Shown here: one piece after another, positions 2,440-51,684 of the stretch
Layout: every line of letters begins with the position of its first letter
How positions within the stretch are numbered: position 1 is the first letter of the stretch
Source of the DNA: Adhaeribacter rhizoryzae
GTDB taxonomy: Bacteria; Bacteroidota; Bacteroidia; Cytophagales; Hymenobacteraceae
Assembly: GCF_008629685.1 (NCBI RefSeq)
Contig: NZ_VWSF01000020.1
Span: 1-64,000 of the forward strand
Length of the DNA: 64,000 bases
Direction: 5' to 3'
Program-made: the position numbers and the translations under genes
The notes under the pieces: model-generated
Database searches by the model: none
What the model was told of the DNA's origin: nothing
The model's input: the letters and a program-made list of their open reading frames with translations, nothing else

Positions 2440-2535
2440 GATGATTTTTGAGATGTGTTATTAAGATATAAATTCAACAAAAAAGACCTGCAACACCAGG
2501 TCTTTTTCAGTATCATTTTTCCGTCATTTTGGTCA
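2440..2535. repeat. Hairpin repeat family, copy 1
   Basis: Shares TTTTTGAGATG, a following AT-rich stretch, AACAAAAAAGACCTG, GGTCTTTTTCA and a trailing TTCCGTC motif with copies near 18815-18910 and 28540-28615. The centre is a GACCTG/CAGGTC hairpin flanked by A and T runs. Confidence 0.5.
2479..2507. terminator. Bidirectional rho-independent terminator
   Basis: AAAAAAGACCTG, a six-base loop, then CAGGTCTTTTT: a good stem with a T run on either strand. It lies downstream of the minus-strand M14-like gene that ends at 2636, so it can end that transcript. Confidence 0.6.
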
Positions 2536-2635
2536 ATGCCTCTGCCTGAAAAACATTGACCGATTGTTTTAATCCCTATTGAAGTTAACCCAATCATATT
2601 TCAAGACAATATAGAGTCTTTTTTGATAAAAAAGA

Positions 2636-3679
2636 TTATTGAATGTGCCCGATGTTAAATAAGCCATCGCCTTTTTTAATGGGGGGGTTAAAGGTTTTGT
2701 AAAGAATAATGCCATCTATCGGGCAGGTAACATAGCCTATTTTATTCCCGAAAAAATCGGTGGTAAAGCCAAGTTGCATGCCTTTTTTTACGTAATCGCC
2801 ACTGGTAAAATCGCTGTAGAAAATGCCGGTATGTTCGCTATTAACTGTGGTGCGCTTGGCTATGAATGCCGGGTTTTGTACAGCGTTAGGCTGGCCTTCC
2901 AAAATACCCAGGTGGCGCATTAAACTTTTAATAGCTGCCTGAATCTGCAACACGTTTTTTTCATCTACCCGGCCTTTGCCGCCACATTCTATATCGGCGG
3001 CCGGAATATTACGCTTGGTAGCTTCGCGGGAACAGTAAATGCTGGCTTCGGTTAAACTTTGTTCATTGCCAAACTGAACTATAAAATCGAAGCCCAAAGC
3101 CAGGGCCATTTGCTTCGCTTTTTCTGATACCGCTGGTTTATCAAAGTAATTATAATAACCTGAATAGGGCCTTAAATCGCCGTTGGCATCGCCATCGTGC
3201 ACGTCTAAAAAATAGTTGCAGCGGGCGATAATTTGGTTTGATATAATCCAGGCTATTTTATCGGTACTGGTGCTATTAGCTTTTCCCGGAAAAACGCGGT
3301 TCAGGTTTTTATTATCCAATGGGTTTACGCGCAAACTGCGGTTCAGAAAGCCCGGCACGTTGGCCAATTGCACTAATATTACTGTACCGCTCATTTTAGT
3401 TGGGTCCAGTTCCTGGTTTAATGCCTGAGCGGCCATAATGGGGGCATATTCTAAACCGTGTACCCCAGCCGTTATACCTAATACCGGACCTGATTTAATG
3501 CCATGAAATACCGTTACCGGAATGAAAGTACTATCGGTAGCGGTAATTACCGGCAATAAAAAGGCTTGCTTTGTACCCGGCTTAATTTGTTTTTGGTTAA
3601 ATAAGAATGGTTTAGGTTTCGCGTGCAAGCTAGTTGCGGTAACTAATAAAAGGGTTATATAAAAAAGCAGTTTTCTCAT
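2636..3679 (-). CDS. Secreted succinylglutamate desuccinylase/aspartoacylase-family (M14-like) zinc hydrolase
   Basis: A 347-residue AstE/AspA-family zinc deacylase, related to M14 carboxypeptidases. A signal peptide covers residues 1-20 (MRKLLFYITLLLVTATSLHA), so it acts in the periplasm or outside. Zinc ligands are visible as H74-x-x-E77 in AGVHGLEY and H161 in FLDVHDGD; E231 in ADIECGG is a good candidate for the catalytic glutamate. The C-terminal 70 residues look like the beta domain common in this family. It probably removes an N-acyl group from an amino acid or peptide, but the substrate cannot be read. It is a single gene with its own downstream hairpin. Family call is firm, substrate unknown. 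Confidence 0.85.
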   Translation of the reverse strand: MRKLLFYITLLLVTATSLHAKPKPFLFNQKQIKPGTKQAFLLPVITATDSTFIPVTVFHGIKSGPVLGITAGVHGLEYAPIMAAQALNQELDPTKMSGTVILVQLANVPGFLNRSLRVNPLDNKNLNRVFPGKANSTSTDKIAWIISNQIIARCNYFLDVHDGDANGDLRPYSGYYNYFDKPAVSEKAKQMALALGFDFIVQFGNEQSLTEASIYCSREATKRNIPAADIECGGKGRVDEKNVLQIQAAIKSLMRHLGILEGQPNAVQNPAFIAKRTTVNSEHTGIFYSDFTSGDYVKKGMQLGFTTDFFGNKIGYVTCPIDGIILYKTFNPPIKKGDGLFNIGHIQ

Positions 3680-47324: not shown

Positions 47325-48986
47325 ATGAACCCAATAAACAGAAGAACTTTTTTATCGCAACTAACGCTGGCTACAGCCGCATTCTCCCTGCCGCAATATG
47401 CTTTTTCCGCATCGTCCATGCCAGCCGACTTTGTAGAAGTAGAAATTACGCACGGAAAAATTCGTGGATTGAGGAGCGAGGGTGTGAATATTTTTAAAGG
47501 AATACCTTATGCCGGCAGCGTTTCCGGCGACCATCGGTTTCGTCGGCCGGCACCACTCCAGTCATGGACGGGTGTACGGGAAGCTTTACAATTAGGCGCC
47601 CCTGCCATACAGCCTCCCCGGCGAAATGAACCCGCTCCGGCTGAGGATTGCCTTTTCCTGAACGTCTGGACTCCGGCCAACGACAACAAGAAGCGTCCGG
47701 TGATGTTTTACAACCATGGCGGTGGCTTTGTGATTGGCTCGGGAGGTTCAGCCAGTCAGGATGGAACCAACCTGGCGCGTAATTTTGATGTGGTAGTGGT
47801 TGAAACCAATCACCGGTTAGGCTTACTGGGCTTTCTGTACCTCGACGAAATAGCCGGGGCCGATTATGCTGGTTCGGGTAATATGGGTTTGCTGGACATG
47901 GTGGCGGGCTTAAAATGGGTGCAGGAAAACATAGCGCAATTTGGCGGCGACCCCAACAATGTTATGATTTGGGGCGAGTCGGGTGGGGGAGCCAAAACCG
48001 CTTGTTTGTATGCCATGCCCGCGGCGGCTCCTTATTTTAACAAAGCATCTATTGAAAGCGGGCCCGGTGTACGCATGACCCCTAAGGAAATAGCCACCGA
48101 AACAACGGCTATGCTGCTTAAAGAATTAAATATTGCCCCCAAAGACTGGCGAAAATTGCTGGCTGTACCGGCGGCCGATTTATTAAATATGCAAAGCAAG
48201 TTGCCGTTTGTGCCGCCTTTTATCGAAAAAAATAAGAGTGTGGGTTTTATGCGCCGCAACTACGGTGGTTTTGGCCCGGTGGTAGATGGCAAAATATTAC
48301 CGCACCACCCTTTCGATCCCGCTGCACCCCAAATATCGCGCAATAAACCTTTGCTGGTAGGCTGGAACGAAGATGAATACACTTTTTTTGCCTGGGAGCG
48401 CAAAGACACCGAATTTGCTACGCTTGATTTTGCGGGTTTGCAGCAAAAACTAGAACCCCAATACGGCCCGCATACTAAAAAAATTATCGATACTTACCGT
48501 AAAGCAAGGCCTAACGCAACGGCAGCCAATATTTTTATTGCGGTTTCTTCTATTACCATGATGGGATTAGGTTCCGTGGAGATTGCTGAAAAAAAGGTGA
48601 AGCAACAAGGTGCGCCGGTATATTTATACAATTTTGGGTATAAGTCGGAGAAAAAGATTCCGGGCACGGATTACCCCATGGGTACGCCCCATGCCATGGA
48701 TATTTCTTTTAAATTTAACAATGAAATTCCGCCCCGCGGTGGTTCTGCACCAAAAGAGAGTTTCTTTGGCGGTAATAAACCCGAAAGATTTGTGGCTTCG
48801 CGTAACTTTGCCGAGCTATGGACTACTTTTGCCCGTACCGGTAAACCCGCCGCGAAAAATGCACCCGCCTGGCCGGCCTATAATCTGCAAAACAGACCCA
48901 CCATGCGCATTGATACCAAATGTGAGGTAATAAACAACCGGTTCAGCCAGGAGCTGGCCATGTGGCGTTCCATTGGAAAGCTATAG
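47325..48986 (+). CDS. Type-B carboxylesterase/lipase, secreted
   Basis: A 553-residue alpha/beta hydrolase of the carboxylesterase type-B family. The N-terminus carries an RR pair and a hydrophobic stretch (MNPINRRTFLSQLTLATAAF), suggesting Tat export. Motifs: EDCLFLNVWTP near 107-118, oxyanion-hole YNHGGGF (129-135), nucleophile elbow WGESGGG (S219), an acidic residue in GWNEDEYTFF and His in GTPHAMDISFKF. It cleaves an ester of unknown nature. Its TAG stop lies inside TATAGGCA, the left boundary motif of the following cassette-like gene. Confidence 0.9.
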   Translation: MNPINRRTFLSQLTLATAAFSLPQYAFSASSMPADFVEVEITHGKIRGLRSEGVNIFKGIPYAGSVSGDHRFRRPAPLQSWTGVREALQLGAPAIQPPRRNEPAPAEDCLFLNVWTPANDNKKRPVMFYNHGGGFVIGSGGSASQDGTNLARNFDVVVVETNHRLGLLGFLYLDEIAGADYAGSGNMGLLDMVAGLKWVQENIAQFGGDPNNVMIWGESGGGAKTACLYAMPAAAPYFNKASIESGPGVRMTPKEIATETTAMLLKELNIAPKDWRKLLAVPAADLLNMQSKLPFVPPFIEKNKSVGFMRRNYGGFGPVVDGKILPHHPFDPAAPQISRNKPLLVGWNEDEYTFFAWERKDTEFATLDFAGLQQKLEPQYGPHTKKIIDTYRKARPNATAANIFIAVSSITMMGLGSVEIAEKKVKQQGAPVYLYNFGYKSEKKIPGTDYPMGTPHAMDISFKFNNEIPPRGGSAPKESFFGGNKPERFVASRNFAELWTTFARTGKPAAKNAPAWPAYNLQNRPTMRIDTKCEVINNRFSQELAMWRSIGKL

Positions 48987-48989
48987 GCA
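48982..48989. repeat. Left boundary motif TATAGGCA of the cassette-like insertion
   Basis: Exact inverted partner of TGCCTATA at 51513-51520. The motif overlaps the stop codon of the carboxylesterase and lies 23 bases before the ATPase start. Confidence 0.5.
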
Positions 48990-49012
48990 ATGGTAAAACG
49001 ATACTACACTAA

Positions 49013-51502
49013 ATGAATATACAGAATAAACTCAAAAATCTTAAAGACCAAAAGAGTTATAGTATTCCAGCCAAAAGGGTAATGGAGCATTTAAAACCTA
49101 TCCTTAGCAAATCAAATGACTTGCGACAAAGATGGATGTGGGAATTACTTCAAAATGCAAGTGATTTAGGCGACAATGTAAAAGCAAGGTTTGAAATAAC
49201 TCCTGACAAATTAAAATTCAGCCACAATGGAAAACCATTCTCATTGGACGAAGCATATAATCTCATTATGCCCGACTCGACCAAAGATGATGAGGCAACA
49301 CATAAAAAAAGTGTAATCGGACAGTTTGGAACTGGTTTTATTTCAACTCATATACTTTCCAAGATTATTAAAATTGAGGGCATAATTGAAGATGACGAGC
49401 AACTTTACAGTTTTAACTTTCACCTTGACAGACGTCAAAGAAACGATAAAGATTTTTTAATTCAATCAATAAAAGACGCAGAAGCAGAGTATAAGGAAAA
49501 CCTTGAAAAACTTGATGAGCTTCCAGAAGATGAATTTCAAACTTCATTTACTTATAGTGTTGACAATACCTATTCTTCTTTAAACGGACAAGAAATTGTT
49601 GATGATGGAATTGAAAGTTTTAAGGAATTGATACCATATGTTTTGACATTTAGACCTCAATTGACAGAAATTGAAGTAATTGACTACAGGACTACAACAA
49701 CTAAGCTAATGTTCAAACGTGAGGAAGTAGAAAATGATATTGAAGACCTCATAATTATACAAACAATTTGCCATAAAAACGGCAAACACATTGGAAACAA
49801 ACTAATAGGAAACATTATTGATGAAGAAACTGAAATTGCTTTCCCAATCAAACACATAGAAGCAGAAACATTTCAGTTGCTTTCATTTCCTGACAACTGC
49901 CCTTTATTGTTTTGTGCATTCCCAATGGTAGGCACAGACGATTTTAATTTCCCAGTAGTTATTCACAGTGAAAAGTTTGTACCAAATAGAGAGCGAGATG
50001 GAATTGAAATTTCTGATTATGATACAGAAAACAGAGATAGGTTAATAGAAGCTAAAGACGCATTTTTGAGATTATTAGGAATAATTGAAGAATATGACTG
50101 GACAGATGCCTTTAATATTTCTTTTCTAAACAATCCAAAATTTAATGAATATTCAATAAAGAATTGGTTTACAAATTCAATTTTCAAGCCAATTAAAGAA
50201 GGATTATATAAAACTAAAATGGTCGAATTAGATCAAGCCCTAAATATTGAAAACAAAAGACTTTCATTAAGCGAAGTATATATTCCTTATGCAGATAAAA
50301 GGGCGAAAAATTATGCTGAATTGGCAACAGATATTTACAATTTTGCATTTAAAACCATACCAACTTTGTTGCCCAAAAGAGAACATTCTCTAAGTTGGTT
50401 TGAAACCTTAGATTTTGAAATATTCACAGGAGAAAAACTTGACTTAGAAGAACTCTCAAAAAAAATATGTGAAGATGTCGATTCGCTTGAAAAGTTTTGC
50501 TCCGCCTACTCAATGAATGAAACAAAAGCAATTAAATTTCTTATTGATTTTATTAAATTGATTATAGCACAAGAAGAAGAGAAACTTCTTGATAAATATA
50601 AGCTAATATTAAATCAAAGTAATCAACTTTGCTTTCTAAAAGGTATTCAACTAGATGTTATTGATCATAAAGGACTTAAAGATGGCTATGATGAGAAACT
50701 AAAAGACATTTACTACTCCTTATCAAATAAGGAGTGCCGTGATGTATTACTTCATAAAGGCTTTGAACAAATAGATAACCTTGTTGACGAAGATGATATC
50801 TATGAATTTAAGAAATTGGCTAAGGACACAGATGAAGAACTTAGAAATTATGAAGGAAACTTTCAAGATGAAGACTTTTTGCTAATACTTAAAGACCTTT
50901 TTAATTGGTATACTACTTGTGGTATTTCAGAGGAAACATTAATAAACTTATTTCCATACTTCTCACTAAATAAATCGCAATTATACCTTAATACAAAAAC
51001 ACCACAAGAATTAGAATATGCTTTTGATATTGAGATAAGTGGTAAAAGCGAAGTATTAGCAAAACTTGCCAACAGTTCATTGTCAGATAAAGATTTAGAA
51101 ATTATTGCTGACAACCCAAAGTTAGTATCTAATTTTATGGAATGGCTTAATAGCAAACAAGAAGACAACCCTGATGAAGAATTAGGAAATATCGGAGAAG
51201 AGTTTTTATATCACCAGCTTTGTCAAATATTTGGAGAAAATAGAGTGCTTTGGGAAGACAAATCTGAATATGATTTTAGAGTTCTTGAAAAGGACTTAAC
51301 GACTACAAAATACTTTATTGACGCAAAGACAACTGGCAAGGGAATCGCAAACAGTGACAATATTCCATTTTTTATGCGGACAGCACAATGGTCTTTTCTT
51401 GACAAACAACAAGCAGGCGGGAAGTATATAATAGCAAGGATATTCAAAAACGGTGGGGCAATTGACGTTAAGTATTTAAAACTAAACAAACAATCATTAT
51501 AA
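49013..51502 (+). CDS. GHKL (Hsp90/sacsin-like) ATPase fused to a C-terminal NOV/DUF3883-like nuclease domain
   Basis: An 829-residue soluble protein. N-terminal GHKL ATPase: RWMWELLQNASDLG (E44, N48 of the N box), a HNGKPFS motif (71-77, G1-like) and GQFGTGFIST (103-112, G2-like). A long helical middle follows. The last 120 residues resemble NOV_C/DUF3883: GNIGEEFLYHQL (E729, E730), YDFRVLEKD (D754), FIDAKTT (D770-x-K772), a PD-(D/E)XK-type core. I see no membrane segment. Codon use and composition are far more AT/A-rich than the genes around it, suggesting recent transfer. ATPase plus nuclease in one protein is common in phage defence and restriction; I infer that role. Not named in any system I can recall with confidence. 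Confidence 0.7.
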   Translation: MNIQNKLKNLKDQKSYSIPAKRVMEHLKPILSKSNDLRQRWMWELLQNASDLGDNVKARFEITPDKLKFSHNGKPFSLDEAYNLIMPDSTKDDEATHKKSVIGQFGTGFISTHILSKIIKIEGIIEDDEQLYSFNFHLDRRQRNDKDFLIQSIKDAEAEYKENLEKLDELPEDEFQTSFTYSVDNTYSSLNGQEIVDDGIESFKELIPYVLTFRPQLTEIEVIDYRTTTTKLMFKREEVENDIEDLIIIQTICHKNGKHIGNKLIGNIIDEETEIAFPIKHIEAETFQLLSFPDNCPLLFCAFPMVGTDDFNFPVVIHSEKFVPNRERDGIEISDYDTENRDRLIEAKDAFLRLLGIIEEYDWTDAFNISFLNNPKFNEYSIKNWFTNSIFKPIKEGLYKTKMVELDQALNIENKRLSLSEVYIPYADKRAKNYAELATDIYNFAFKTIPTLLPKREHSLSWFETLDFEIFTGEKLDLEELSKKICEDVDSLEKFCSAYSMNETKAIKFLIDFIKLIIAQEEEKLLDKYKLILNQSNQLCFLKGIQLDVIDHKGLKDGYDEKLKDIYYSLSNKECRDVLLHKGFEQIDNLVDEDDIYEFKKLAKDTDEELRNYEGNFQDEDFLLILKDLFNWYTTCGISEETLINLFPYFSLNKSQLYLNTKTPQELEYAFDIEISGKSEVLAKLANSSLSDKDLEIIADNPKLVSNFMEWLNSKQEDNPDEELGNIGEEFLYHQLCQIFGENRVLWEDKSEYDFRVLEKDLTTTKYFIDAKTTGKGIANSDNIPFFMRTAQWSFLDKQQAGGKYIIARIFKNGGAIDVKYLKLNKQSL

Positions 51503-51512
51503 AAAGAACCAC

Positions 51513-51570
51513 TGCCTATAACACCACCTAAAAAGCATAAAAACGCTTTTTAGCCAAGTCCGTTATAATA
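51513..51570. repeat. attC-like imperfect palindrome after the ATPase gene
   Basis: TGCCTATAAC (51513) pairs at the outside with GTTATA (51562-51567), and inside CTAAAAAGC pairs with GCTTTTTAG around a short loop. Two paired arms with unpaired joints resemble the folded recombination sites of gene cassettes. The outer motif also mirrors TATAGGCA at 48982. Confidence 0.45.
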
Positions 51571-51605
51571 CTATCATCAATTGGTTAAGGCACGTAAGTT
51601 ATTGC

Positions 51606-51684
51606 GGTCAGTTGAGCTTGTCGAAATAGCTAATTCTACCTTTTCCATAACTGTATTAGATCCTTCGACAGGCTCAGGATGACC
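51606..51684. repeat. REP-like palindrome (GTCATCCTGAGC..GTCGAA type)
   Basis: GGTCAGTTGAGCTTGTCGAA at 51606 and TTCGACAGGCTCAGGATGAC from 51664 are imperfect inverses, the stem of a common Bacteroidota repeat I recall with CCTGAGC and GTCGAAGGA. It lies between the cassette-like element and the PEP-hydrolase-like gene. Confidence 0.55.

Follow-up and report, generated by a model that had tools for sequence, protein, structure and literature searches.

A large, AT-rich ATPase gene lies directly behind a carboxylesterase-like gene in Adhaeribacter rhizoryzae, and the question is how it came to this position. An earlier note on this DNA, made from the letters of the window (the whole stretch of 64,000 nt that was analysed), took the gene for a mobile unit inserted by site-specific recombination. 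Our data favour this view: the right end belongs to a family of attC-like sites, the two ends of the unit are complementary, and orthologues of the esterase are not followed by the ATPase. Together with the position of the hairpin between tandem cassettes in relatives, this makes it very likely that the unit is a single-gene integron cassette with a lone attC off any array, lying at a G|TT within the final esterase codons. The features of the locus are (window positions; G, L and C numbers below denote genomes, fetched loci and contigs of the own genome, G000):

47325..48986, forward strand: carboxylesterase-like host gene, whose stop codon carries the left junction
48980..48989, forward strand: left junction G|CTATAGGCA, putative cassette start, reverse complement of the unit's own R'' with one mismatch (C for T)
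48981..51562, forward strand: putative whole cassette, about 2.58 kb by the G|TT crossover rule, with ends placed from the two junction motifs
49013..51502, forward strand: cargo gene, 829-aa sacsin/HSP90-type GHKL ATPase, TmtA-like with a weak C-terminal NOV_C, by profile matches
51513-51567: attC hairpin, right end
51513..51522, forward strand: attC R'' arm TGCCTATAAC, 10 nt 3' of the ATPase stop
51528..51553, forward strand: attC inner stem CTAAAAAGC / GCTTTTTAG with loop ATAAAAAC, 67.2 bits to model R1, in which this site is one of nine
51562..51570, forward strand: R' GTTATAATA, right junction, the G being the cassette end and TTATAATA the host flank

The unit thus reads GGAAAG|CTATAGGCA...ATG(49013)...TAA(51502)...TGCCTATAAC ACCAC CTAAAAAGC ATAAAAAC GCTTTTTAG CCAAGTCC G|TTATAATAC. 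Directly 3' of it, an imperfect inverted repeat GGTCAGTTGAGCTTGTCGAA...TTCGACAGGCTCAGGATGACC that is REP- or MITE-like was observed at 51607-51683.

The cargo protein matches NCBIfam NF047352 (sacsin-type ATP-binding domain) with 65.1 bits at a cut-off of 50. Its residues 1-550 align to the PADLOC TmtA model PDLC03967 (1.9e-117), covering only positions 1-539 of 1063, and a full-length match was not obtained. TmtA, which we take to be the Tiamat protein, thus resembles the window protein in the N-terminal 550 residues but differs from it in the C-terminal part. At the C-terminal end Pfam NOV_C scores 0.0057, under its cut-off; a protein of G662 that matches this end only lies above the NOV_C cut-off. 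Judged from these profiles, an anti-phage role and a nuclease-like tail are probable for the cargo ATPase. Among 395 genomes of the class, 16, the own genome included, had a homologue at any strength; separate searches with the ATPase gave no confirmed viral contig, no phage and three plasmids with distant matches. In the G136 homologue (69%) the start junction is G|TTATACGCG, 31 nt from the ATG, the same distance as for the window cassette; the surrounding genes are unrelated, and the contig stops short of the right end.

The AT-richness of the gene against its neighbours was confirmed: GC is 0.316 for 48981-51566, 0.494 for the esterase and 0.489 for the next gene, the lowest-GC 2.5-kb intervals of the 64 kb fall on the cassette region, and GC3 is 0.25 for the ATPase and 0.49 and 0.46 for the neighbours. 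As first noted, the ATPase ORF starts 26 bases past the esterase stop, which overlaps the left motif, and the 8-base inverted pair is present (TATAGGCA at 48982-48989, TGCCTATA at 51513-51520). Base composition can account for the frequency of this 8-mer (5 in the window versus 2.9 expected, with 5 reached by 14 of 100 shuffles) but hardly for its placement, as the probability of an occurrence within 60 nt upstream of the ATPase start is about 0.002. TGCCTATA is common by itself, and the case for a mobile unit therefore cannot rest on the 8-mer.

The outer arms gave no family signature. In the own genome 16 copies of TGCCTATAAC were counted versus 9 for the reversed control, no second arm was seen by eye in the 100 nt after the other 15 copies, and TATAAC...GTTATA pairs showed no enrichment (23 places versus 117 in the reversed control). 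The suggested TGCCTATAAC/GTTATAGGCA signature of Bacteroidota did not hold: TGCCTATAAC...GTTATA was found in 22 of 395 genomes of the phylum, the reversed control in more. Two search patterns were also rejected. A longer form of the outer-arm motif gave 10 scattered stretches in the genome collection, and viral scans for the outer-arm motif gave 2 each; Flavilitoribacter (L109) has a palindrome, but no array was seen there. The pattern CACCACCTAA...TTAGCC gave at least 120 viral stretches, most of them lacking a second arm (4 when tightened), and was too strict in the phylum (3 of 395 genomes).

The proposal of an attC-like right end was substantiated by its folding, its blastn relatives, its covariation and its position in tandem arrays. 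The hairpin lies directly behind the gene on the same strand with R'' 10 nt after the stop, and the bottom strand of 51507-51575 folds more stably than the top strand (z −4.4 versus −3.6), either strand beating 200 of 200 shuffles. Rfam matches in the window region were all far under their gathering scores. The cassette start at 48980 matches the reverse complement of TGCCTATAAC in 9 of 10 positions. At the right junction G|TT is present, and at the left it reads G|CTA with one mismatch; the left end is CTATAGGCA where the rule predicts TTATAGGCA, which speaks against a lone cassette. The window R'' (CTATAAC) is two positions off RYYYAAC and so does not conform to the R-box consensus. Within the family, RYYYAAC was found in 16 of 74 sites, with AAC constant by construction as it was the anchor of the count, and GTTRRRY in 13 of 70.

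What relatives of the site have in common is the inner hairpin; the outer arms are cassette-specific and the TATAGGCA arm is not shared. When 78 bases were used as a blastn query, plasmids of three genera proved to carry similar sites (Adhaeribacter swui, E 7e-6; Flammeovirga, 0.05; Tenacibaculum, 0.01), located between, behind and before genes and each adjoining a gene end or start. A further relative is on Polaribacter phage P12002L (E 0.001), where the loop is CATTAAAACG in both sites seen and not CATAAAAACG as in the window. The P12002L array was described as a CALIN with two tested sites; IntI1 recombined attC2, but not attC1, with attI1 (PMC9892861). Nine aligned sites show compensatory changes in the inner stem, with 94% of cells paired, compared with no more than 50% in slid controls. 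Neither the 12 double-change cells nor the covariation score was reached by any of 500 shuffles and the share of paired cells was also above all 500, while two of five measures stayed within the shuffles (double-change pairs 106/500, further pair types 74/500).

A covariance search with model R1 at E 0.01 covered 360 genomes of the order, and 69 of them hold sites. The six genus members counted, the own genome among them, carry 4 to 30 sites each (13 in the own genome, 30 in G005); the order-wide scan at E 0.01 gave 11 in G003 and 13 in G006. Many sites of the family stand singly, others in tandem single-gene arrays. Among the arrays L308 has eight sites in 10.5 kb and L325 eight at E 0.05, and the Flammeovirga plasmid stretch has four plus a weak fifth. 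As to the question whether the motifs frame single genes in tandem, it is the inner hairpin that separates tandem single-gene cassettes in these relatives.

The ends of the cassettes were analysed with 79 model matches from 50 loci, of which two short antisense matches were dropped (77 used, 74 distinct). For the 25 pairs of neighbouring sites 200-3000 nt apart, R' agreed with the reverse complement of the next R'' in 190 of 250 letters versus 139.3 (sd 6.4) after permutation, a value reached in 0 of 20000. Upstream of 43 of the 74 sites the own start was found at 9/10, while 60 permutations gave a mean of 5.8 and a maximum of 11. An ORF stop (at least 50 aa, same strand) lies at most 80 nt upstream in 48 of the 70 sites with more than 400 nt of upstream sequence, and the median distance from stop to R'' is 8 nt.

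Cassettes of the family also show signs of movement. In the congener G006 an identical stretch of 603 bp occurs in two places (L300rc 2507-3109 and L303 2678-3280). Its left edge of identity is exactly at G|TT; its right edge is not at G|TT but 8-10 nt before R', since the attC copies differ there (CAGCCGTT versus GCGGCCCGTT), and this counts against the cassette reading. Two other cassettes of G006 (L301 and L305) share 90% identity across 640 bases, and their edges fall at GTTs. For a cassette on contig C12 of the own genome, whose flanks look by eye like ilvE and prfB, the flanks lie 31-259 nt apart lacking the cassette in G001-G007. The joined flanks, aligned with G001 and G007 only, match G001 ungapped at the junction with gaps about 10 nt to either side. 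This empty site fits G|TT but is located in repeats, which leave a choice between two G|TT positions. Short repeats of the C12 cassette flanks recur widely in genus genomes, as seen in the intergenic flanks of L332.

At the window locus, esterase orthologues of 88% (G028), 79% (G002), 78% (G001) and 77% (G034) identity were compared. The end position is the same in three of them, and that of G001 is two residues longer. In the comparison proposed by the earlier note, no ATPase was found within 1.5 kb behind the orthologues of G028, G002 and G001, or within 0.3 kb in G034 (contig end). An exact empty junction was not found: no close strain was available, and past the esterase stop the sequences of the relatives could not be aligned with the window. 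Removal of 48981-51562 would leave AAG|TTA TAA, keeping Lys-Leu-stop of the esterase, and the present AAG CTA TAG would likewise be read as Lys-Leu-stop. By this scheme a circular cassette would have recombined via its folded bottom strand into genomic AAG|TTATAA, and the insertion would have kept the last residue and the stop codon of the esterase.

Which enzyme could have done so? The statement that no integrase is nearby is correct for the window locus, but a probable one is encoded elsewhere in the same genome. On contig 36 (C36, L367) an intact recombinase ORF of 483 aa is followed by one cassette. Of 83 screened loci, most of them chosen for a site and often with short flanks, four (L294, L269, L272 and L310) carry a Xer-like tyrosine recombinase that is followed on its own strand by attC sites. 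None was in view in the other fetched stretches, including the arrays L308, L325, L326 and L328. In a wider view of L272 (L369, G017) the recombinase is followed by 14 model-R2 sites (E 0.05; two of them were in the model) on the same strand, mostly with one ORF between them, and L371 and L375, which were selected only by their protein, have R1 sites 3' of the recombinase on the same strand.

None of the residues R, K, HxxR, H and Y is missing from these recombinases. They are not IntI by TIGR02249 (cut-off 265), where the C36 protein reaches 199.6 bits and the five scanned 199-207; with the XerA-type model NF040815 (cut-off 220), whose title includes "integron integrase", the five reach 200-233 and two pass. 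According to PMC9668308 the IntI-specific domain is unique to IntI and necessary for recombination, and IntegronFinder detects IntI by it. From GKGxKDR to LRHS, 67-68 residues were counted in all 16 recombinases, which indicates that the IntI-specific insertion near patch III is absent; the same spacing is 105 and 109 in the two IntI of four in which it was measurable, 71 in E. coli XerC and 75 in XerD. In a tree, four IntI form a 100/100 clade that leaves out the 16 recombinases, and these join IntI against XerC/D and their relatives at 100/99. Because of long branches this placement is tentative, and no more than 8% of bootstrap trees have a branch that sets the 16 apart from all others. Relatives of the catalytic part occur in 608 plasmid records of many phyla (E 1e-30), only 2 of them covering 80%, and the recombinase family is therefore not confined to arrays.

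A small divergent gene stands beside the recombinase at L367 (5162-5542), L368 (6449-6823), L369 (13673-14065), L370 (6041-6433) and L381 (6508-6888). It is possibly a regulator or partner. Of four scanned, L367, L370 and L381 gave sub-threshold matches to DUF2116 (treble clef) and L369 none.

An attI-like junction, as would start the first cassette, was found behind most of these recombinases. We looked for a GTT 20-200 nt after the recombinase stop whose 10-mer recurs inverted and ending in AAC 150-2200 nt further on; these limits were set after looking at the same loci, and the downstream match needs no hairpin. The 10-mer recurred in 13 of 16 loci at 9/10 and in 9 of 16 at 10/10, compared with 26 and 2 of 240 cross-locus control pairs and with 0 of 16 on the 5' side; at 8/10 the test does not discriminate (13/16 versus 114/240). 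Three of the 16 loci (L368-L370) came via attC hits and 13 by protein match alone, the last three of these from the 608 plasmid records. Ten of the 13 pass at 9/10; L372 and L374 have less than 0.7 kb of contig left, and L379 fails. Among 14 recombinase loci fetched, L372, L373, L374, L376, L377, L378, L379 and L380 are without a convincing R1 site; all of these except L380 (276 aa, 114.7 bits) entered the test. Ahead of the junction, L367 resembles L371 (TACATAATA|GTT) and L372 resembles L373 (ACAACCGACTA|GTT), but the likeness is between congeners and between copies of one genome. Named plasmids with such a recombinase come from Pontibacter kalidii, from Rufibacter tibetensis, with eight tandem genes behind the recombinase, and from a Chryseobacterium (L383), with two candidate junctions.

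Since its type heads several arrays of the family and an attI-like junction follows its stop, the contig-36 recombinase of the own genome, if active, would be the likely enzyme to have moved the window cassette. Taken further, Bacteroidota probably have an integron class of their own, in which attI-attC platforms are served by a Xer-like integrase lacking the IntI domain, sister or forerunner of IntI, and from which single cassettes, a defence-like ATPase among them, are strewn through genomes such as the own one. That recombinases were seen at only 4 of the 83 screened loci weakens this reading.

We consider it unlikely that the cassette was instead placed by an ordinary IntI-type integrase, now lost or plasmid-borne, with the Xer-like recombinases as bystanders. 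IntI1 can use a Bacteroidota phage attC (PMC9892861), and most fetched arrays have no Xer-like recombinase in view. With six candidates scored per genome, no IntI over the curated cut-off or at E 1e-50 was found in the 360 genomes of the order, 69 of which hold sites; this result is weak alone, because of the limit of six and because nothing gave a signal in the controls. When all candidates were scored against the TIGR02249 cut-off, 2 of 15 genomes were over it (G002, G005) and 1 of 11 in another set (G002), with the own genome under it, which lends some probability to an IntI as past mover. The genes concerned look degenerate, however (L118 1435-2415 and L323 1435-2430, in two congeners). 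Both read GLKITEGL, with Lys where Arg is usual at what we take to be the catalytic position, and that of G005 has an in-frame stop. Near them no convincing R1 site was found, the best being 14.5 bits (E 0.42) in 50 kb of G002 and 17.9 bits (E 0.036) in 12 kb of G005. The inverted recurrence of the junction 10-mer behind the Xer-like recombinases (13 of 16 loci) also argues against bystanders.

It is improbable that the ATPase arrived by homologous recombination or an ordinary transposon and that the attC is left from an older, eroded array: the window locus offers neither a second attC nor an exact empty site, but the start motif and the attC stand at cassette-typical distances (10 nt from the stop for the latter), and the G136 homologue, with different neighbours, begins at a junction of this kind too. 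A transcription terminator or REP/MITE-like repeat with a chance TATAGGCA pair would fit the A/T runs of the stem, the frequent 8-mer and the adjoining repeat, but is extremely improbable and was rejected on the covariation and array permutation tests, as the relatives separate tandem cassettes, show covariation and retain unpaired internal loops, and each start pairs with its own end (0 of 20000).

The preferred reading, a lone cassette moved by site-specific recombination, can be compared with known systems. Like an integron gene cassette or single-attC CALIN, the unit has one gene, an attC few nt past the stop, complementary ends, a G|TT-like junction and no integrase nearby; unlike these, the R boxes of its family are looser than RYYYAAC/GTTRRRY. 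It lies in the chromosome outside an array, as do cassettes inserted at attG sites of genomes (Loot et al. 2024, as cited in PMC12901181). With the CALIN of P12002L (PMC9892861) it shares the hairpin sequence family, but P12002L is a virulent phage with methyltransferase genes between the sites. The platforms resemble a complete integron (IntI, attI and attC array) in having a tyrosine recombinase at the array end that adjoins a recombination-like junction. They differ in that the recombinase is without the IntI insertion, outside the IntI clade and often with extra N-terminal sequence, and in that its reading direction is towards the cassettes, so that the junction adjoins its 3' end.

PMC9668308 mentions the detection of integrons in Bacteroidota; according to the accessible part of PMC9024848, IntegronFinder 2.0 brought one complete integron, in Salinibacter, to a phylum in which only In0 had been known earlier. 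Among the literature matches listed, mostly outside subscription journals and accessible in part, no report of Bacteroidota platforms as described here was present. Integrons are recognised by IntI, and IntI by its extra domain; if the platforms are what they appear to be, this definition would widen, the origin of IntI from Xer-type recombinases would become testable, and a phylum with few reported integrons would hold many, invisible to integron finders that require the IntI domain. The movement of large single genes, defence ATPases for instance, among chromosomes, plasmids and phages of Bacteroidota would then have an explanation as well.

Some further elements were observed near cassettes. 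Group II intron matches (RF02001, RF01998) lie beside cassettes at L133 7699-7869 and L135 4271-4535, and in L135 the cassette end TGTGCCTAA runs into intron-end-like sequence; group II introns that target attC sites are known. Of seven named plasmid stretches, L133, L381, L382 and L383 have IS110-family transposase genes beside or inside them, and L134, L135 and L261 do not; the IS110 group includes attC-targeting members. In a prophage-like stretch of G423 (L100 5519-6400), two tandem small units carry a different attC-like repeat, CGTATAACTTTTAATT..AGTG..GTTATACGCA, perhaps another attC type.
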